This document shows positions 4,041-49,964 of a stretch of 64,000 bases of DNA, in pieces. The translations under genes and the position numbers were made by a program. The DNA comes from Verrucomicrobiaceae bacterium (GTDB lineage Bacteria > Verrucomicrobiota > Verrucomicrobiia > Verrucomicrobiales > Verrucomicrobiaceae). The stretch is taken from contig JABTUN010000002.1 in the NCBI GenBank assembly GCA_015075365.1, positions 1,054,001-1,118,000 on the forward strand, in the 5' to 3' direction. The first letter of the stretch is position 1; every line of letters begins with the position of its first letter. The notes under the pieces were generated by a model that was not told where the DNA came from, ran no database searches, and was given only the letters and a program-made list of their open reading frames with translations.

Positions 4041-5969
4041 TCAAAAGCGCAGCCGGAATCCCGCGTACGCGCCGGTGCGCATCGAGGGGAAGTTCAACAC
4101 CTCCGAATAGCGCTCGCCGAGCAGGTTTTCGACACGGGCGAAGAGCTCGACGTTTTTCGTGAGCGCAAGGCTGGCCGTGAGGCGCAGGCGCAGGTAGTCC
4201 TCCACATCCCGCTGGGCGGCGCCGAAGCCGTCCTCGCGGTCGATGGCATACAACGCGCCGAGTCCGATGCGCAATCGCTCGCACGGCCGCGCCCACACAT
4301 CGCTGGAGAAGGAATGACGCGGACGGCGCACAAGACGGCGCAGGTCGCTCACATTGTCCGCCTCAAGGTAGGTGTAATTGACGCTCAGGCCGAAGCGATC
4401 GCTGGGAGACCAGTTGAAAAGGGCTTCCAGGCCCTCCGTGCGCACGCGATCGATCTGCTGGAGCGCGCCGAAGGGCGGCACGAAGGGATCGAACTCGATG
4501 AAGTTGCGGATGCTGTTGCGAAACCACGTCAGGCCGATGCTGGCGGTGTTTTTCGCGAAGGGCTGCTCGATGCCGATCTCAAAGCCGCGGCTGCGCTCCG
4601 GCCGGACAAAGAGCGGATTGCCAAAAAGCGCTGCCTCGCGGTTCTGCGGGCTGGCGGGGGCAAAAGCGGTGCCGTAATTCGCGTGCAGCACCGTCTGTGT
4701 CCACGGCAGCCGCCAGCTCGTACCGGCGCGCCAGGTGGTGGCATCCTCAAAATCGGAGTACGAATCGTGGCGGACCCCGCCGATGACATTCCAGCCGGGC
4801 AGTATCTCCGCCTGCGATTGCAGGAAGAGCGCCCAGTTTGTCTCCGCCTGATCGACATCATAGCTGTTGGCTCCTGGATTGGTGAAAAAGCCGAACACCG
4901 GCTCAAACAAGCCATCATTGTTGTAGCGCGAGTAACCGTTGTCCTGCACCCACGCGCCCGCCGTGATCGTCCAGCGATCCACGGGGCGGAACACGCTCTG
5001 GTATTCCCAGAAATGCGTGCGGGAGGTTATGCGGTTGTTCAGGCCGTAGCCGGGCGTGAAGTCCGTGGCCACCTGGCGGAAACTGCCAAACTGGTACGTC
5101 AGCGACTGCGTCCACCACGGTGTTGTTTCCCAAACAAGACGCGGCGAGACGCTCCAGAACTCCGTCAGGAGGTGGTCGTCGCTGTTGTCACTGGGGAAGA
5201 ACGGGTTCGCCGGCGCGTGCGTCGTGATGTCACCCGGCACACCCAGGTCCGCATTGTAGTAGCGGAAGTCGATGTCGAGCCGCAGCGTGTCCGCGAGCTG
5301 GAATCCGAGACGTCCGCTGGTGTTGTCCATCTGCACCTGGCTGTTGATGCGGTAGCCGTCGGAGTCGAGGCGGCTGTATTCGAGGCTCCAGTCCATGATG
5401 CCCGCCTCGCCGCGCGTGCTGGCGCCCTCGCGGAAGGTGCCGAAGCTGCCCGCCTCGAAAAACGCACCGAACTCCGGCTTTTTGAGGCCCTTGCCACCGC
5501 GCGTGATGATGTTGATCACGCCGCCGAGCGTCCTGCCACCGTAAATGCTCGCCGCCGGGCCGCGCAGCACCTCGATGCGCTCCACATTGTCCAGCGCCAT
5601 GGTCTCAATGTTGTAAAGACCGGCCAGATTCGCCGGAATCGGCCTGCCATCGAGCACGACGAGCGTCTGGTCGCTGTTCGTACCGCGCAGGAAGACGCCG
5701 GCGACCATGCCGGTGGTGCCGCGGTCGGCGATGTTCAGGCCGGGAACCTGCCGCAGGGCGTCAGGCAGCAGTTGGAGCTGGTCCTGCTCGATTTTTTTCC
5801 GGTCGATGACCGTCACGCTGCTGGCGGTGCGCCAGCGCTCGGTCTCGGTTTTCGTCGCGGTGACGACGCGTTCCGTCAGTTCGACGGCTTTGTGAGGCTC
5901 GGCGGCAGGGAGGCTGCCGAGGGTGAAAAAGAGCGCAAAGGCCCTTCCTCGCAGTTTTTGGAGGTACAT
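4041..5969 (-). CDS. btuB: TonB-dependent outer-membrane receptor, BtuB-like (probable vitamin B12 uptake)
   Basis: The protein has 642 aa from the ATG at 5969, which gives a signal-like start (MYLQKLRGRAFALFFTLGSL). The plug domain is at about residues 40-150 (ERVVTATKTETERWRTASSV, then VFLRGTNSDQTLVVLDGRP and VERIEVLRGPAASIYGGRTLGGVINIIT), closest in pattern to BtuB. The beta barrel fills the rest and ends YAGFRLRF with the terminal Phe typical of outer-membrane barrels. A cobalamin-riboswitch-like leader supports B12 as substrate. Energy would come from a TonB-ExbB-ExbD complex such as the one at 28876-31251. In-frame extension to 6287 would translate the riboswitch and is rejected. Confidence 0.88.
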   Translation of the reverse strand: MYLQKLRGRAFALFFTLGSLPAAEPHKAVELTERVVTATKTETERWRTASSVTVIDRKKIEQDQLQLLPDALRQVPGLNIADRGTTGMVAGVFLRGTNSDQTLVVLDGRPIPANLAGLYNIETMALDNVERIEVLRGPAASIYGGRTLGGVINIITRGGKGLKKPEFGAFFEAGSFGTFREGASTRGEAGIMDWSLEYSRLDSDGYRINSQVQMDNTSGRLGFQLADTLRLDIDFRYYNADLGVPGDITTHAPANPFFPSDNSDDHLLTEFWSVSPRLVWETTPWWTQSLTYQFGSFRQVATDFTPGYGLNNRITSRTHFWEYQSVFRPVDRWTITAGAWVQDNGYSRYNNDGLFEPVFGFFTNPGANSYDVDQAETNWALFLQSQAEILPGWNVIGGVRHDSYSDFEDATTWRAGTSWRLPWTQTVLHANYGTAFAPASPQNREAALFGNPLFVRPERSRGFEIGIEQPFAKNTASIGLTWFRNSIRNFIEFDPFVPPFGALQQIDRVRTEGLEALFNWSPSDRFGLSVNYTYLEADNVSDLRRLVRRPRHSFSSDVWARPCERLRIGLGALYAIDREDGFGAAQRDVEDYLRLRLTASLALTKNVELFARVENLLGERYSEVLNFPSMRTGAYAGFRLRF

Positions 5970-6048
5970 GTGTTTTGGAGGTTCATTGGTTCGATGAAAG
6001 CTTCGCAGAGAGATGTTCGGACTCCGGGTTTGTGCGGCTGCTCCGCGG

Positions 6049-6070
6049 TTTGAAATTTGAAATTTCAAAT
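6049..6070. repeat. Short 7-nt-period palindrome in the btuB leader
   Basis: Three consecutive heptamers TTTGAAA, TTTGAAA, TTTCAAA form a perfect hairpin (TTTGAAAT, loop TTGA, ATTTCAAA). The 7-nt period matches the longer heptad elements at 7901, 19823, 33472 and 49131. It sits between the riboswitch core and the btuB start. Confidence 0.55.
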
Positions 6071-6255
6071 GCGCAAAGCGCCGCTCCTCGCCTCCGCCTT
6101 CACCAGGGATGGCTCCCCGATTGGCTTTGCTCCGTGGTTGCCCACGAATGGAGGTCTGTGACCCGATACCGCAGCGCCACTGTGGCCGGTTTTCACGGCC
6201 TTCCCTGCATCTGCGAAGATAAAGAAAACGCGGGGAGGTGATCCTCGCGCCATGC
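6060..6255 (-). promoter_or_regulatory. Cobalamin riboswitch-like leader of btuB
   Basis: On the minus strand the leader has GGGAA followed by the stem GGCCG..CGGCC with GTGAAAAC, then CACAGTGGCGCTGCGGTAT at about 6171-6203. This is the same order and spacing as the GGGAA-stem-GUGCGAAUC-stem-CUGnCGCnGCGGUAA core of the E. coli btuB B12 riboswitch. A further hairpin (CGTGGGCAACCACG) lies downstream, and a weak B12-box-like AGCCA segment follows near 6110. The boundaries are approximate; the 3' B12 box is divergent, so the class is likely but not certain. Confidence 0.65.
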
Positions 6256-7455: not shown

Positions 7456-7826
7456 GGGAGCTGACAGACGCCGCTCCGTGCTCCTATACCGGAATGTGCG
7501 ACGAAAGTTACGAACTTTTGCAAACAGGAGAGCATTTAAATGATTGTTTAGAATTCAATAACTGGGAAACCGTCCCAAACAAATAGCAGATAAAAACTTA
7601 ATTGCACGTCCATTTTCCAGATTTTCGTTTATGAAAAATCCACCACTAGCAGGGCACCGGAGTCCCATTTCTCCCCCGCGCCGCCCCGGACGCGCTCCGC
7701 CGCGAGACGCCCCGAGGTCAGAAGTGCGCCAGCACTGCCCTGTCGATCGGGGCAGCCGAAGAGAGAAGATAGAGAAGAGAGAAGGGAGTCGGTCAGAGGT
7801 CAGACGTGTGCGGGCACGAACGCGTT

Positions 7827-7885
7827 TCGTAGAGGAAGTCGTGAGACTTCCCCGATCCGGGGCAAACTTACGTTTGCCTCTACGA
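7827..7885. repeat. 59-bp three-hairpin (cloverleaf) palindrome
   Basis: An outer stem of 9 bp (TCGTAGAGG/CCTCTACGA) encloses three consecutive small hairpins with perfect stems: AAGTC-gtga-GACTT, CCCCG-atc-CGGGG and CAAAC-ttac-GTTTG. Every base is either paired or in a 3-4 nt loop. This is too regular for chance and suggests a mobile palindromic element or a structured RNA. Confidence 0.85.
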
Positions 7886-7900
7886 GGGGCGTGGAGACGT

Positions 7901-7932
7901 GGAACCTGAAACTTGGAACCTGAAACCTGAAC
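7901..7932. repeat. Heptanucleotide-period array (single arm)
   Basis: Consecutive 7-mers GGAACCT, GAAACTT, GGAACCT, GAAACCT, then GAAC. The same unit occurs as the right arm of the palindromic elements at 19823, 33472 and 49131. No matching left arm is visible here; the cloverleaf palindrome lies immediately to its left. Confidence 0.8.
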
Positions 7933-7974
7933 CCCACCCTCCCCTGCCCTGCGGGCGGCGGCTCCGGCAGCGCC

Positions 7975-17538: not shown

Positions 17539-19818
17539 ATGCCAAGCAAGCCCTCCTCCACCAAAGCCGCCAAGCCCGCCGCCGACGATATTGTTGACGA
17601 CGCGACTGCGGTTGAAGCCTCTCCAAAACCGAAGAAGAAATCTTCGGCAAAAAAGGAGGTGCTTTCGCTGATTGAGGAAGGAGGAGAGGACAAACCCAAG
17701 GCCAGGACGCCGCGCAAGGAAGCCTCGAGCGTGCTCCCCCGCATCGGGGCGAAGCCTGTGGCACCAAACAAGGAAGCGGAGCCGGAGAACGCCCCCGCCG
17801 AGCCGGCCAAACCCACGCTCGAAGACCAGAAAAAAGCCGCGCTGAGCCTTTTTGACGAAAAACCGAAAAAACGCGAGCGCCCTGCGACAGCCGCGCCGTC
17901 CGCCTCGGCCCTCCCGCCCATCTCTCTGCTGCTGGACGAGCCTGCCAAACCCAAGCCCGTCATCGCTCCAACGCCCCCGCCCGCCGCTGTCGAGGCCGCT
18001 CCGCCAGAGTTCGAGCTGGGTGAAAACGGAGAAAAGATCATCCATTTGAAGCCGCCGATCATCGTGAAGGATCTGGCGGAAAGGATGGGCCTGAAGCCTT
18101 TCAAGATCATTTCCGACCTCATCGCCTTCAAGGTCTTTGCCAGCGCGGACAAGGCCATCGACATTGAAGTCGCCGAAAAAGTCTGTGAGAAGCACGGCTT
18201 CAAGCTGGAGCGCAAAAAACGCGAAGAAGGCGGCGGCGTCCACAAGGTCGAGGAGGTCATTGTCGAGCCGGAGCGCCTCCCCGAGCCCACCGCCGAGGAA
18301 AAAGACACCCGTGAGCTCCGCGCCCCCATCATCACTTTCATGGGCCATGTGGACCATGGCAAAACCTCCCTCCTCGACGCCCTGCGCAAAACGCAAGTCG
18401 CCGCGGGAGAGGCTGGCGGCATCACGCAGCACATCGGTGCCTACTGCATCTTCCACGACGGCAAGCCCATCACTTTCATCGACACCCCCGGCCATGCCGC
18501 CTTCTCCGCCATGCGCGCGCGTGGCGCCAATGTGACCGATATTGTCGTCCTCATCATCGCGGCGGATGACGGCATCATGCCGCAAACAAAGGAAGCCCTC
18601 GCCCACGCGAAGGCCGCTGGAGTGCAGCTCATGGTCGCCATCAACAAGTGTGACCTGCCCACCGCCAATGTCATGCGCGTCAAAAGCCAGCTCCAGGAGA
18701 TCGGCCTCGCGCCGGTGGACTGGGGTGGTGAGATCGAGTGCATGGAGGTTTCCGCCAAAAGCGGCCTCGGCCTCGACAACCTGCTCGAAACCATGGCCCT
18801 GCAGGCTGAGGTGCTCGAATTGAAGGCCGATCCGAAGGCTCCCGCCCGCGCCACTGTCATCGAGTCCTCCATGGTCGCCGGCAAAGGCCCCGTGGCCACC
18901 GTCATCGTCGGCCAGGGCACGCTCAAAGTCGGCCAGTCCTTCATTTGCGGTCCGTATTGGGGCAAGGTGAAGGCCCTCGTGAACGACCGCGGCCAGAACA
19001 TCAAGGAAGTGCTCCCCGGCATGCCCTGCGAGGTCATCGGCTTCTCCGACATGCCCAACGTGGGCGACGAAGTCGTCGTCATGGACAGCGAGCGCTCCGT
19101 GAAAAAGCTCAGCGAGGAACGCCTCGAGGAGCTGCGGCAGAAAAAGCTCACCGTCCCCCGCCGCACCACGCTGGAGCATCTCTTTGCCTCGATCGAGGAA
19201 GGAAACAAAAAGTCCCTCAAAGTCGTCCTCAAGGCCGACGTGCAGGGCTCCGTCGAGGCCATCGCGAAGTGCCTCAAGGACATCAAGAGCGACAAGATCA
19301 ATCTCGAGCTCCTTCACTCCGAGGCCGGCTCCATCAACGAGAGCGACGTGCTCCTCTGCTCCGCCTCCGACGCGCTCATCCTTGGCTTCAACGTCAAGGT
19401 CGAGAACAAGGCCCTCGCCGTCGCCAAGCGTGAAGGTGTGCAGATCAAGCTCTACTCGATCATCTATGAGCTCATCGACCAGGTCAAAGAGGCCATGCAG
19501 GGCCTGCTCGACCCGATCACTCGCGAGAAAGTCCTCGGCCACGCCCGCGTGAAGCAGGTCTTCAAGGTCAACAAAGGCTACGTCGGCGGTTCCGTCGTCA
19601 CCGATGGTCTCATGCACCGCAAGCAGCGCGCCCGCGTGCTGCGTGACGGCCAGGCCGTCTATGACGGTGGCTTCGAGACGCTGCGCCGCTTCCAGGACGA
19701 AGTCCCCGAAGTCCGCAACGGCCTCGAGTGCGGCATCAAGCTCTCCGGCTTCTCCGACTACGAAGAAGGCGACATCATCGAGTGCTACGAACTCGAAAAA
19801 ATCGCCCAAACCCTCTGA
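17539..19818 (+). CDS. infB: Translation initiation factor IF-2
   Basis: A 759-aa GTPase that brings initiator tRNA to the 30S subunit. The first 170 residues are a Lys/Pro/Ala-rich low-complexity tail, variable in the family. Then come IF2-N ([21 protein letters not shown]), the G domain with [14 protein letters not shown] (G1), DTPGHAAF (G3) and NKCDLP (G4), and the C-terminal domains including GSVEAI and [10 protein letters not shown]. It is second in the nusA operon; the 89-bp gap from nusA shows no gene. Confidence 0.98.
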
Positions 19819-19822
19819 TTGT

Positions 19823-19909
19823 CCCAGGTTTCAAGTTTCAGGTTTCAAGCTGGCACCGTCACCACCGCCAGGCCTGATCTTGAAACATGTCACCAGAAAC
19901 TTGAAACCC
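19823..19909. repeat. Palindromic heptad-repeat element between infB and rbfA
   Basis: The left arm (19823-19850) reads as 7-mers AGGTTTC, AAGTTTC, AGGTTTC, AAGC. The right arm (19879-19909) is its inverted counterpart (CTTGAAACAT, then AGAAACTTGAAACCC), with a 28-nt GC-rich loop. It fills the gap between the infB stop and the rbfA start, so the mRNA of this operon would contain a large hairpin. Confidence 0.88.
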
Positions 19910-19916
19910 ATACACG

Positions 19917-20276
19917 ATGTCCCTCCGCCTCGACAAAGTCCGTGAACTTCTCCGCCGCGAGCTCTCGCTCGTCATCGAGAAGGACTACCGGATGGAAAAC
20001 GGCCTGCTCACCGTGCATGACGTGAGCATCACGCCTGATTTGAAGCAGGCATTCGTGTATGTCGGCGTCATCAGCAAGCCGCACCAGCAGGAGGCAGCCG
20101 TGGAAAAGCTCAACAAAGCGCGCGGCTCCATCCAGCGGGACCTCTACAAACGGGTGAAACTGCGCAACAGCCCCCAGCTCATCTTCCGGCTCGATCACAC
20201 CACGGAGAAGGCCGTTCCGCTCGTCCAGCTCATCGACAGCCTGCCGCCGCCCGCCGAGGACACACCACCGGCATGA
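19917..20276 (+). CDS. rbfA: Ribosome-binding factor A
   Basis: A 119-aa protein acting in late 30S maturation. The KH-like fold is recognisable from RLDKVRELLRRELSLVIEKDY at the start, DVSITPDLKQAFVYVGVI in the middle and LRNSPQLIFRLDHTTEKAVPLVQLID near the end. Third in nusA-infB-rbfA, the classical order. Separated from infB by the heptad element rather than by the usual short gap. Confidence 0.95.
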   Translation: MSLRLDKVRELLRRELSLVIEKDYRMENGLLTVHDVSITPDLKQAFVYVGVISKPHQQEAAVEKLNKARGSIQRDLYKRVKLRNSPQLIFRLDHTTEKAVPLVQLIDSLPPPAEDTPPA

Positions 20277-31288: not shown

Positions 31289-33991
31289 TCAATCCACATA
31301 CAGCAGCGCATTGCTGCTCATCAGCGCGTGGCAGAAAGCGGTGAGGCCGAGGAAAGCGGGGTCTCCCGGTGTCTTCGACGGCGCGCCCAGCTCGACCTCC
31401 AGCGGTGTGGGATGGGCCTTGTAAAACTCCGTCTGTGCCTGCACGAACTCCACGCTTCCCTGCACGTCCGACTCCGACGGCGCGCGGCCGTGCACAAGCG
31501 TCCACGCGAGCCGGACCTGTCCCGGCAGCTCCCGTCCGCCCTCCGTCTGCACGCGCTGCGCGAACTGCTGCGCATGCACGCGCATCACGGCGCTGTTCAT
31601 CAGCAGCAGACTCTGCGGACTCACGGTGGTGACGGCGCGCGCGTCGCAGCTCGGCTCCATCACCGGCGCGTCAAAGGTGGCGAACATCTCCAGCGGACGA
31701 GACCGCCGCGCCTGCACATAGATGCTGCGGCGGAATTCCTCCCCATTGAGCGGCAGGTACTTGCCCGTGGGGCGGCCCGCGGTGTCCGTGGTGTCGATCC
31801 CGATCACCACCTGCCCCTCCTCGTTGAACATCACCGGCACCGGCGCTCCACCAATTTTGGGGTTGAGCTTGCCGCTGATGGCCAGCAGCGAATCACGCAA
31901 TGTCTCCGCCTCCAGCCGGCGCACATTCATGCGGCTGAGGTACAAATTGTCCGGATCAATCCGGTCGCGTGTCGCATCTCGCGTGGAGGCCTGCCTGTAG
32001 GTACGGGAGGTCATGATGAGGCGGTGGAGCTGCTTCAGGCTCCAGCCGCCGCGCATGAATTCCGCCGCCAGCCAGTCGAGCAGCTCCGGATGCGTGGGCT
32101 TGCTGCCGAGCTGGCCGAAATCTCCCGGACTGGCGACGATGCCTTTGCCGAAATGATGCATCCAGACGCGGTTCACCATCACGCGGGCCAGCAGCGGATG
32201 TTTCCCGTCCGTCAGGGCATTCGCCAGCGCCAGACGGCGGCCGGTGGTCGGCAGCTTGGGATTTTTCTCCGGCAGTTCGACCTTCCGATGACCGGCCAGC
32301 ACAGTGAGATCACCCGGGCCCACCTTGTCCTTCGGCTGGTCATGATTGCCGCGGTTGAAGATAAAGGTCGCGGGCACCAGTTCCGGCTTCGCCTTCGGAA
32401 CCTCGGTGAAGGCATGCACAAACTCCTCCCGCGGCTTCTTCGCGCGCACGGCGTTCGCATCCTCGGTCATCTGCTTGAGCGTGGCGGCATGTTTCGTCTT
32501 GTAGGTCGTGTCGTAGAGATAGAGTGACCCGGCGCTGAGCTGGTTGATGCGCGGCCAGGCCTTCAGCAGCTTTGTCTGGTCCGCCGTGCGTTTTTTCGCC
32601 TCCGTGCGGTAGGCGGTGCGCAGCGCGTCACGATCCTTCTCCGGCGCCTTGGCCAGTTCCTTCTCCAGCACCTCGGTGATGAACTCCTCCTGCTTCTTCA
32701 GCCGCGCCTCGTCGATCTTTTTCGCCTCCGCCTCGATCTTCGCCGCCTCCGCCGCCTCGGAGTCCGTCAGAAGCGAGACGAGCCGTCCCTGCGTGCTACG
32801 CCAGGCCTTCGTGTCAAAGCCCGGCTCAAACACCGCGCGCAGACGGTAGTAATCCGCCTGTGAGATCGGGTCATAGCGGTGGTCGTGGCACTGCGCGCAG
32901 CCGATCGTCAGCCCGTAGAGCGAGGTGCCCACCATCTTGATCGTGTCGGCAATGTTCGCGTTCTGCGTCTCCGCGTCGTTCTTTTCGCCAGTGCCGTTCG
33001 GAGCCATGCGCAGGAAGCCAGTGGCCGTGAGTTTCTCGATCGCGTCCGCGGACAGGTTCTTGTAGGGCTGCGGCACCATCTCATCGCCCGCGAGCTGCTC
33101 CCGCACAAACTGGTCGAAGGGCTTGTCCTTGTTCAGCGCGTGGATGACGTAATCGCGGTACTTCCACGCCCATTTGCGCTCCAGGTCCTTCTCGCCAAAG
33201 CCCTCGCTGTCCGCGTAACCCGCAGCGTCCAGCCAGTGGCGGCCCCAGCGCTCCCCATAATGCGGCGAGGCCAGCAAGCGATCCACCAGCGAGCGCACCG
33301 CCGCCTCGGGATCGCGGATGGAATCCGCCACAAAGGCCTCCACCTCCTGCGGCGTCGGCGGCAGGCCTGTCAGATCAAACGAGGCACGGCGGATGAACGT
33401 CACCGGATCGGCCTCGCGCGAAAAACTGAGGCTCTTTTCGATCAACTTGGCCTCAACGAAGGCGTCAATGCCCTGTTTCAGGTTCCGCGTGTCAAGTTTC
33501 AAGCCGGCCGCCGGGGGCGCGCCTCGGGCACTTGAAACTTGGGACGTGAAACTTGGAACTGACGGACTGGAAACTGGCTGCAGCGACCACCATGCGCGCT
33601 CCTCGTCCGTGAAGGCATGCTCCGGCCCCAGTTTCTCCGGCTCGGCTCGCGCGGTCCTCGCGCCTTGGGCGACCCATTGCTCCAGCGTGGCGATTTCCTT
33701 GTCCTTGAGCTTGGATTTGCCCTTCGGCATTTCACCCGCTTTCACGAGCTCGATGAGGTGGCTCTTCGCCGCGTCTCCAGGAACGATTGCCGGACCGCTT
33801 TCACCGCCCTTTTGCAGAAACCGCGCCAGCCGCACATCGAGGCCGCCCTTCGTCTCGCCCTCCTCGCCATGACAATGAAAGCAGTGCGCCTTCAAGATGG
33901 GACGTACATCCTTTTCAAACGTCAAAATGGCCTCCGCGGCGCGGGCGGACGCAAACGGGGCAAGTGTGGCGATCAGGAGGGGGCGGATCAT
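31289..33991 (-). CDS. PSD1-type protein: cytochrome c + DUF1549 + DUF1553, exported
   Basis: A 900-aa protein with a signal peptide (MIRPLLIATLAPFASARA). A haem-binding CFHCH motif lies near residue 37 in the planctomycete cytochrome c domain (ILTFEKDVRPILKAHCFHCHG). DUF1549 follows from about residue 170 (IRRASFDLTGLPPTPQEVEAF), and DUF1553 occupies the C-terminal part (HPLLARVMVNRVWMHHFGKGIVASPGDFG). These large proteins are typical of PVC bacteria and often sit with sulfatases or sugar genes; function not established. A heptad repeat element is inserted in frame in the linker near residues 138-172. Confidence 0.92.
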   Translation of the reverse strand: MIRPLLIATLAPFASARAAEAILTFEKDVRPILKAHCFHCHGEEGETKGGLDVRLARFLQKGGESGPAIVPGDAAKSHLIELVKAGEMPKGKSKLKDKEIATLEQWVAQGARTARAEPEKLGPEHAFTDEERAWWSLQPVSSPSVPSFTSQVSSARGAPPAAGLKLDTRNLKQGIDAFVEAKLIEKSLSFSREADPVTFIRRASFDLTGLPPTPQEVEAFVADSIRDPEAAVRSLVDRLLASPHYGERWGRHWLDAAGYADSEGFGEKDLERKWAWKYRDYVIHALNKDKPFDQFVREQLAGDEMVPQPYKNLSADAIEKLTATGFLRMAPNGTGEKNDAETQNANIADTIKMVGTSLYGLTIGCAQCHDHRYDPISQADYYRLRAVFEPGFDTKAWRSTQGRLVSLLTDSEAAEAAKIEAEAKKIDEARLKKQEEFITEVLEKELAKAPEKDRDALRTAYRTEAKKRTADQTKLLKAWPRINQLSAGSLYLYDTTYKTKHAATLKQMTEDANAVRAKKPREEFVHAFTEVPKAKPELVPATFIFNRGNHDQPKDKVGPGDLTVLAGHRKVELPEKNPKLPTTGRRLALANALTDGKHPLLARVMVNRVWMHHFGKGIVASPGDFGQLGSKPTHPELLDWLAAEFMRGGWSLKQLHRLIMTSRTYRQASTRDATRDRIDPDNLYLSRMNVRRLEAETLRDSLLAISGKLNPKIGGAPVPVMFNEEGQVVIGIDTTDTAGRPTGKYLPLNGEEFRRSIYVQARRSRPLEMFATFDAPVMEPSCDARAVTTVSPQSLLLMNSAVMRVHAQQFAQRVQTEGGRELPGQVRLAWTLVHGRAPSESDVQGSVEFVQAQTEFYKAHPTPLEVELGAPSKTPGDPAFLGLTAFCHALMSSNALLYVD
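33472..33578. repeat. Heptad-repeat palindromic element inside a coding sequence
   Basis: On the plus strand the left arm reads CTGTTTC, AGGTTCC, GCGTGTC, AAGTTTC, AAG; the right arm reads ACTTGAA, ACTTGGG, ACGTGAA, ACTTGGA, ACTGACG, GACTGGA, AACTGG. A GC-rich loop of about 27 nt separates the arms. It lies wholly within the PSD1 gene, keeps the frame open and encodes a Ser/Ala/Pro-rich linker (SVPSFTSQVSSARG and onwards). Confidence 0.85.
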
Positions 33992-48278: not shown

Positions 48279-49118
48279 ATGCCGGACGCCGCCAACATCG
48301 GGATACTGCAAGATCTGACCTGCATCGCGGGCCTGGCCTTGTTCCTAGGCCTCATCGGTTACCGCTGGCTGCGCCTGGTGCGCCCGCACGCCGCCTGGAA
48401 TCATGACGGCCTCGTCATATCGCGCCCGTACACGGATGTGGACCTCGTCGTGATGACCGCCAGCCTCGCGCTGCTGCTCTCCAGCGTCATGAAACCGGTC
48501 GAACAAGCCGCCGGCGGCGATCCGCTGCCGGACGCCGGCATGATCGGCCTGGCCATGCTGGTGAACCTGATGTTCTGCGCGCTGCTGCTCATCTATCTGC
48601 ATCAGATCCGCGGGCTGAATCCGGCGGAGCTCTTTGGCTTCGATCTCATCCGCCGCGGGCGCCGCGTGCTGCGCGCGGTGCTGCTGTTTTATGTGCCCAT
48701 GCTCGTCATCGTCAGCCTGGTGGCGCAGTGGATGTCCGGCTGGCTGCAAAACATCGCCCCCGGCCCGCCGGAGCAGGAGCTGGTGCGCGTGTTTCAGACC
48801 GCCGAGGGCACCGGGCTGCGCGTCATGATCGTACTGGCCGCCGTGGTCATCGCCCCGCTGGCGGAGGAGATCATGTTCCGCGGCTTCGTCTACGGCGTGT
48901 TGAAGCGCTACACGGACGCTCCCTTCGCCGCCATCCTTTCCGGCTTGTTTTTCGCCATCATCCACATGCACATCGGTTCCCTCGTGCCGTTGTGGGTGCT
49001 CGCGGTCATCTTCTGCATCGCCTACGAGATCACCGGCTGCCTGCTCGTGCCCATGCTGCTGCACGCCGCCTTCAACGGCACAAGCATCGTGGTGATGCTG
49101 CTGGGCGCAGGGCAGTAA
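48279..49118 (+). CDS. CPBP-family intramembrane metalloprotease (Abi/Rce1-like)
   Basis: A 279-aa protein with about seven hydrophobic segments. The catalytic motifs of the family are present: PLAEEIMFRGFVYGVL (EE...R) near residue 205, a conserved His in LFFAIIHMHI and another in LLHAAFNGTS near the C-terminus. Downstream of sppA by 12 bp, so both are likely transcribed together. The substrate is unknown. Confidence 0.92.
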   Translation: MPDAANIGILQDLTCIAGLALFLGLIGYRWLRLVRPHAAWNHDGLVISRPYTDVDLVVMTASLALLLSSVMKPVEQAAGGDPLPDAGMIGLAMLVNLMFCALLLIYLHQIRGLNPAELFGFDLIRRGRRVLRAVLLFYVPMLVIVSLVAQWMSGWLQNIAPGPPEQELVRVFQTAEGTGLRVMIVLAAVVIAPLAEEIMFRGFVYGVLKRYTDAPFAAILSGLFFAIIHMHIGSLVPLWVLAVIFCIAYEITGCLLVPMLLHAAFNGTSIVVMLLGAGQ

Positions 49119-49130
49119 AAAGCCCGCGTC

Positions 49131-49207
49131 TCATGTTTCATGTTTCAAATTCCACGTTGCAGGTGCCGTTCGTGATACCTGGCACCTGAAACATGAAACT
49201 TGAAACG
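49131..49207. repeat. Palindromic heptad-repeat element between CPBP protease and fabG
   Basis: The left arm reads TCATGTT, TCATGTT, TCAAATT, CCACGTT, GCAGGTG; the right arm reads CACCTGA, AACATGA, AACTTGA, AACG. The inner GGCACC/GGTGCC-type ends pair around a loop near CGTTCGTGATACCT. The element lies between two convergent genes (stops at 49118 and 49218) and may act as a bidirectional transcription end. Confidence 0.88.
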
Positions 49208-49217
49208 CCCCCCGGCC

Positions 49218-49964
49218 TCACATCACCATCCCGCCATCCACCGCGATGGCCTGGCCCGTGATGTAACGCGCATCCGGACTGGCCAGGAACAATGCCGCGG
49301 CGGAGATGTCCGAAGCCTGGCCCAGTTCTGCCAGCGGGATCTTCTTGAGGATCTCCTCCTTGATCTGGTCGTTCAGGACATGCGTCATGTCCGTGGCGAT
49401 GAAGCCCGGGCAGATCGCGTTCGCCGTCACGCCGCGCCCCGCGAATTCACGCGCCAGCGACTTCGTGAAGCCGATCAGCCCCGCCTTGCTCGCCGCGTAG
49501 TTCGCCTGGCCCGCGTTCCCGATCAGGCCGATCACGGAGCTGATGTTGATGATGCGCGCGCCCTTCTGCTTCAGCATGCTGCGCTGCACCGCCTTCACCA
49601 TGTTGAAGGCGCCCTTCAGGTTCGTGTCCAGCACCGCGTCCCAGTCCTCCTCGCTCATGCGCAGCAGCAGGCCGTCCTTGGTCACGCCCGCGTTGTTCAC
49701 CAGGATGTCCACATGGTCAAAATCCGCCAGGATCTGCTTTCCCACCTCGGCGCAGGCGGCACCGTCGGCCACATCCAGCGCATACCCCTTCGCCGCGCCG
49801 GGGTGCATGGCATTGATGGCATCTGCCGTGGCCTGGGAATTGGCCTGCGTGCGGCTCACCACAGCCACCTTGGCCCCCTCCGCCGCGAAAGTTTCAGCGA
49901 TGGCTTTGCCGATGCCGCGTCCGGCACCGGTCACGACGGCGACCTTGTCTTGGAGTTTTCCCAT
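49218..49964 (-). CDS. fabG: 3-oxoacyl-[acyl-carrier-protein] reductase
   Basis: A 248-aa SDR of fatty-acid synthesis. The cofactor motif is AVVTGAGRGIGKAIAE, the Ser-Tyr-Lys catalytic residues are in IINISSVIGLIGNAGQANYAASKAGL and the C-terminus ends in YITGQAIAVDGGMVM as in FabG. The start MGKLQDKVAVV at 49964 is the family norm. No other fab gene is adjacent, so the reductase could also act outside the FAS pathway. Confidence 0.94.
   Translation of the reverse strand: MGKLQDKVAVVTGAGRGIGKAIAETFAAEGAKVAVVSRTQANSQATADAINAMHPGAAKGYALDVADGAACAEVGKQILADFDHVDILVNNAGVTKDGLLLRMSEEDWDAVLDTNLKGAFNMVKAVQRSMLKQKGARIINISSVIGLIGNAGQANYAASKAGLIGFTKSLAREFAGRGVTANAICPGFIATDMTHVLNDQIKEEILKKIPLAELGQASDISAAALFLASPDARYITGQAIAVDGGMVM

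Follow-up and report, generated by a model that had tools for sequence, protein, structure and literature searches.

To our knowledge, there is no accepted reason why heptamer repeats are over-represented in bacteria. The GGGNATC heptamers of Xanthomonas, with ~70 inverted pairs per genome, have been interpreted via G-quadruplexes (G4s) by Rehm et al. 2015 (PMC4692102), who also cite a polymerase-footprint idea for 7-nt tandem repeats. Direct heptamer arrays have been reported in Nostoc and Beggiatoaceae (PMC4692102, PMC4679880), and the TAACTGA arrays of Beggiatoaceae, Cyanobacteria and Bacteroidetes were proposed to be sites for a translational regulator (MacGregor 2015, PMC4679880). REPINs and GTAG- or CGTC-tagged REPs lie between genes as inverted pairs around a loop that varies, also occur as singlets and have lineage-specific copy numbers (PMC3116915, PMC3733652), all of which they share with the element described here.

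This element, built from the unit GTTYCAN, is real, dispersed and hairpin-forming, and it belongs with the poorly explained heptamer repeats. A description of the GTTYCAN family was not found in the literature searched, which lay largely outside the subscription journals. The earlier note knew of no described repeat family with this pattern; in part there is a precedent, since inverted heptamer arrays built from another unit are known from Xanthomonas (PMC4692102). The stretch of DNA analysed (the window, 64,000 nt) contains three inverted elements and one solo array, listed here with their neighbours and with one stretch that does not belong to the family:

19826-19907, no strand assigned: element 1, filling the infB-rbfA spacer (layout from sequence)
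19826-19849: left arm of element 1, AGGTTTC AAGTTTC AGGTTTC AAG
19850-19878: loop of element 1
19879-19907: right arm of element 1, CTTGAAAC ... GAAACTTGAAAC
17539-19818, plus strand: infB (IF-2), upstream of element 1 (gene call and Pfam IF-2)
19917-20276, plus strand: rbfA, downstream of element 1 (gene call and Pfam RBFA)
33475-33559, no strand assigned: element 2, inside a coding sequence, with left arm 33475-33503 and right arm 33531-33559
31289-33991, minus strand: host gene of element 2, a planctomycete-type cytochrome protein (gene call and Pfam) with domains PSCyt1 (37-89), PSCyt2 (175-389) and PSD1 (585-849)
49128-49206, no strand assigned: element 3, with left arm 49128-49157 and right arm 49179-49206
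48279-49118, plus strand: Rce1-like CAAX protease gene, left of element 3 (gene call and Pfam)
49218-49964, minus strand: short-chain dehydrogenase gene, right of element 3 (gene call and Pfam)
7894-7933, plus strand: solo NTGRAAC array that lacks an inverted partner
6049-6070, no strand assigned: not a family member, inside a cobalamin riboswitch

The heptamer arms and loop that the earlier note had described between infB and rbfA were recovered at 19826-19907, with the infB stop codon ~7 nt upstream of the left arm and 9 nt between the right arm and the rbfA start codon. The copies it placed at 33472-33578 and 49131-49207 share the unit, arm order and inverted layout at 33475-33559 and 49128-49206, the latter occupying a 99-nt spacer between convergent genes, and its half or short copy at 7901-7932 is a single non-inverted array at 7894-7933. 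A further copy claimed at 6049-6070 must be withdrawn, as its unit differs (GAAATTT) and it lies inside the riboswitch at 5991-6229 on the minus strand (Rfam RF00174, 34.3 bits), which is located upstream of a gene at 4041-5969. The heptamer elements of the window and of 12 loci gave no match to the Rfam 15 covariance models, and none of the window copies has a T-run after its right arm, as an intrinsic terminator (a GC-rich hairpin with a U-run behind it) would. The intergenic region of the solo array also holds another stretch with a 7-nt period (AGAGAAG-like, 7755-7793).

The earlier note had made its case depend on a genome-wide excess of such arrays, and this excess is present. The pattern GAAACNTGAAAC had 74 exact matches in the 6.9-Mb genome vs. 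2 for a control pattern read backward, and within the window, with up to two mismatches allowed, it had 30 matches vs. 9.0 +/- 2.9 in shuffles (maximum 17). Same-genus species contain from 0 to ~106 exact matches; taken with the 74 vs. 2 seen here, this range indicates that amplification has been lineage-specific. A strict period-7 detector (18 of 21) overlooked the family because of its free N position and was replaced by a looser one. Array counts, based on pattern scans and ~0.9 Mb of extracted sequence, gave 55 clusters around pattern matches in this genome, 23 of them inverted; the longest array, of ~14 units, has no inverted partner (L042:3983-4188). By the gene calls of a home-made ORF caller, 45 of the 55 clusters are intergenic, against a non-coding share of ~9% for the window under identical calls. 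Inverted elements often occupy spacers of 70-105 nt, ~9 nt from either gene, and arrays are enriched in convergent spacers (p 0.007) and depleted in divergent ones (p 0.06).

The unit reads GTTYCAN in left arms and NTGRAAC in right arms, with N free, giving the layout 5'-GTTYC(ANGTTYC)n-ANG / loop / CNT-(GRAACNT)nGRAAC-3'. All 20 pairs of neighbouring opposite arms run in the order GTTYC to GRAAC, and the most common arm length, both here and in Flavobacterium, is four units. Outer arm ends are phase-fixed at GTTYC/GRAAC with background sequence beyond them, and inner ends carry on as A-N-G. As the earlier note had observed, the repeat phase is kept even where single bases vary.

This anatomy matches that of the Xanthomonas repeats, for which PMC4692102 reports a 7-nt unit with a free position, a mode of four units (two to many), a non-coding excess, a preference for tandem-gene spacers with avoidance of divergent ones, inverted pairs, and frequent conservation at an equal position between species. 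There the unit is G-rich and explained by G4s, and the sections consulted mention no exchange of slots between several families, no fixed phase at the outer ends and no single unit that is spread across phyla. We therefore considered whether GTTYCAN arrays could be G4-forming repeats, as published for the Xanthomonas and Nostoc heptamers; the four-unit mode, the inverted pairs, the tandem-gene spacers and the avoidance of divergent spacers would all fit. Neither GTTYCAN nor NTGRAAC contains a run of three Gs, so four units cannot form a G4, and the four-unit mode exists here despite that missing G-tract on either strand. The G4 reading of this family is refuted by its own sequence and retains practically no credence. 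Since the Xanthomonas anatomy, including the preference for four units, is reproduced without a G-tract, G4 formation cannot be the common cause. The TAACTGA and cyanobacterial heptanucleotide repeats resemble the GTTYCAN arrays in being dispersed intergenic 7-nt arrays that occur in distant phyla and near start codons, but they have another unit and are almost all direct, with one indirect repeat (PMC4679880).

Comparison of orthologous sites points to mobility. Among the infB-rbfA spacers of 30 species, the element 1 hairpin recurs in G066 and G026; other spacers hold hairpins with variant units (G020, G012, G001, G030, G029) or of other heptamer families, GAAGRGC (G008, G004, G025, G015) and GAATGNC (G010), and four have no hairpin (G028, G022, G024, G056). 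GTTTAAN is a further hairpin unit seen at this spacer. Element 1 is absent from G028, whose infB has 95% DNA identity, and present in G066, at 90%. The slot and layout thus persist in many species with the unit sequence replaced. Element 2 corresponds to codons ~145-172 of the PSCyt1-PSCyt2-PSD1 protein, in the linker ahead of PSCyt2. Its orthologous slot measures 27, 75, 87, 96, 99 or 108 nt, all multiples of 3, being empty in G028, G068 and G014 (27 nt) and 75-108 nt long where occupied; in G008 it holds a hairpin of another heptamer family, GAAGRGC.

An exact scan of GTDB genomes found the palindromic GTTYCAN layout in at least 118 stretches; the matches listed are mostly from Flavobacterium and also include Acidobacteriota, Nitrospira, Planctomycetes, Bacteroidales, Chloroflexi and Ignavibacteriales. 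Two Flavobacterium slots were followed across species. Slot 1, an operon spacer, carries an inverted-array hairpin in 30 of 30 species, with GTTTCAR units in 27, AAAGTCN units in one (L370) and an octamer family in two. Slot 2 lies between a stop codon and a separate intrinsic terminator downstream of the element, and holds GTTTCAR arrays in 26 of 28 species and a GTAG-tagged REPIN-like palindrome in the other two, so that such a palindrome can occupy the same slot as a heptamer element. Together they show a hairpin at 58 of 58 orthologous spacers, an occupancy biased upwards because both slots were chosen for recurrence of the element; the informative part is the at least four family swaps with zero losses. 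A third Flavobacterium site is cleanly empty in two species, with flank identity of 84-92%. The replacement of one hairpin family by another in orthologous spacers separates what spreads from what keeps, and both questions can be tested in this cultivable genus.

Loops gave further evidence. Among Flavobacterium loops, 15 pairs have a common 9-mer vs. 0.85 in shuffles, and 8 of the 15 lie at unrelated sites with dissimilar flanks. Among copies in this genome loop sharing is unclear, with top pairs scoring 12, 11, 11 and 11 vs. 9-11 in shuffles; the slight excess may reflect leftover heptamers inside the loops. The earlier suggestion of a non-autonomous mobile element is thus the best supported one, on the strength of clean empty sites, slot swapping, loop sharing between non-orthologous copies and fixed outer ends, but neither a mobiliser nor a target-site duplication was found. 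Such duplications were seen at 0 of 22 elements in this genome (k = 2-9) and were near expectation in Flavobacterium. The element resembles MITEs in its terminal inverted arms, fixed ends and empty sites, and differs from them in that no conserved interior (in this genome), target-site duplication or parent transposase was found. Pairs of left and right arms 150-3500 nt apart, as an autonomous parent with two distant arms might present, occurred three times in the loci extracted; the one examined (L073) encloses an ordinary gene and no transposase, and this candidate was rejected.

Could the elements instead be a product of mutation, in which polymerase slippage generates the 7-nt tandem repeats and template switching in the palindrome generates the inverted arm, with no mobility or function? 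Unit number does differ between orthologous sites, runs reach 14 units, and loops or whole elements are inverted between orthologues. Against this, the two arms of one element differ at their N positions and so are not mutual copies, dozens of unlinked loci carry an identical heptamer, as do other phyla, the outer ends are phase-fixed, and periods of 8, 9 and 11 nt occur too. We regard this explanation as rather improbable. Within slots 1 and 2, the inversions of loop or whole element distinguish L351/L353 from L355/L356 and L374 from L377, the latter pair differing by inversion of the entire element.

Another rival reading places the element in the REPIN/RAYT system, with the abundant Y1 (HUH) transposases of these genomes as its mobilisers. 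The inverted pair with a variable spacer, the intergenic position and the singlets of the REPIN-type layout are all present; Y1_Tnp genes were found in 47 of 48 same-genus genomes, with up to 27 in each; and at one slot the element gives way to a GTAG-tagged palindrome, another of which (7820-7892) adjoins the solo array. However, the GTAG or CGTC tetranucleotide that tags REPs is missing from the palindrome ends, which read GTTYC/GRAAC with background flanks, and the arms are heptamer arrays (compare PMC3116915, PMC3733652). Moreover, a Y1-rich species can have few elements, as does G013 with 23 Y1 genes, and 30 Y1_Tnp loci from other genomes of the genus showed neither GTTYCAN arrays nor a period-7 excess. 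RAYT/REPIN membership was rejected on the grounds that the Y1_Tnp genes examined are not flanked by arrays, and we hold it to be very improbable. The small Y1_Tnp genes are themselves unusually numerous in this genus, and the palindrome at 7820-7892 is of the form GTAGAGG...CCTCTAC, REPIN-like with a GTAG end.

The remaining alternatives concern what is conserved. Predicted RNA folds are better than those of shuffles for element 1 (-31 kcal/mol, z -3.6), element 2 (z -2.4) and element 3 (z -5.4 on the plus strand and -5.0 on the minus strand), and that of the solo array at 7894-7933 is not special (z -0.05). Covariation of arms within families was not detectable, arms pairing no better within species than between species. 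The N positions pair at chance level between arms in this genome and weakly above chance in Flavobacterium (p ~0.02), and a slot 1 alignment of 20 species has double changes at just 2 pairs. An RNA hairpin selected by its pairing was rejected on these grounds. Given arms without detectable covariation within families, it is the unit sequence and not pairing alone that is conserved, and selection for pairing as such is weakened; the unit is kept in each arm with pairing as a consequence, which speaks for sequence-specific recognition, whether by an enzyme that mobilises the element or by a protein that binds it, more than for pure RNA structure. As for the hairpin RNA processing site that had been envisaged, the hairpin is likely a consequence, pairing not being the most visibly conserved feature.

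The protein-binding array of the earlier note is possible on this sequence evidence, given the free N and the arms without detectable covariation within families. GTTYCA would be the site of a sequence-specific protein that binds DNA or RNA and N the spacer, binding would be cooperative through the arrays and two-sided through their inversion, and the hairpin would be a by-product. Six of the seven unit positions are kept, N is free and unpaired between arms, polarity is fixed, arrays have about four units, and one unit occurs in several phyla, all of which a binding protein would accommodate, as it would the missing covariation. It would less readily explain why unrelated repeat families refill the slots, why promoter-bearing divergent spacers are not favoured, why one copy lies in a coding linker, or why copy number varies so widely within a genus. 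We consider a binding array unlikely, though by no means negligible.

The most likely mode of action resembles that of a REPIN: a candidate enzyme would spread the element in trans, and copies would be retained at some spacers. This enzyme, which would copy or transpose the element, would act on its two inverted arrays, each of about four recognition units of 7 nt and with a fixed outer end, and amplify it lineage by lineage, as happens with REPINs or MITEs. Insertions would survive mainly in short spacers that are presumably transcribed, at 3' ends or in in-frame protein linkers, which is where copies are found, and transcripts of these regions would contain the element as a long hairpin. Selection probably maintains this hairpin at some slots, most likely because it protects or separates the mRNA of adjacent cistrons. 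Hairpins of a different family, among them a REPIN-like palindrome, can take over the same slot, as the swaps document. To a non-autonomous dispersed palindromic repeat of this kind, spread in trans and retained at some spacers, we give close to an even chance.

GTTYCAN is one of several unit words. Other 7-nt families in the genus are GAATGAC, GAAGGGC, GAAAACT, GAACCAA and GAGAAGT, and intergenic inverted arrays there also have periods of 8 (GGAGTGNT), 9 (ACACGGAAT) and 11 nt. The strict 7-nt period proposed earlier thus applies to the GTTYCAN family but not to the inverted arrays of the genus as a whole, and the other periods make a special role of 7 nt, e.g., as a polymerase footprint, doubtful. 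A broader and distinctly speculative reading, which we think improbable, is that of a cross-phylum class with one architecture (about four short units per inverted array, outer phase fixed) and interchangeable words (GAAACNT, GAATGNC, GAAGRGC, AAAGTCN and 8- and 9-nt units), spread by an undiscovered enzyme, with the G4 interpretation wrong generally. If true, a class-wide enzyme might synthesise or copy tandem units. The inverted intergenic arrays with 8-, 9- and 11-nt periods (GGAGTGNT, ACACGGAAT, GACGCTGATAA, AATCGTTT) are located at L155:16171, L146:251, L120:19131, L147:1275 and L366/L368. The backward-read control pattern was itself strongly enriched in G047, a member of the same order, with 54 matches that apparently represent CAAAGTN arrays, and an AAAGTCN-type unit like that of G047 fills Flavobacterium slot 1 of L370.
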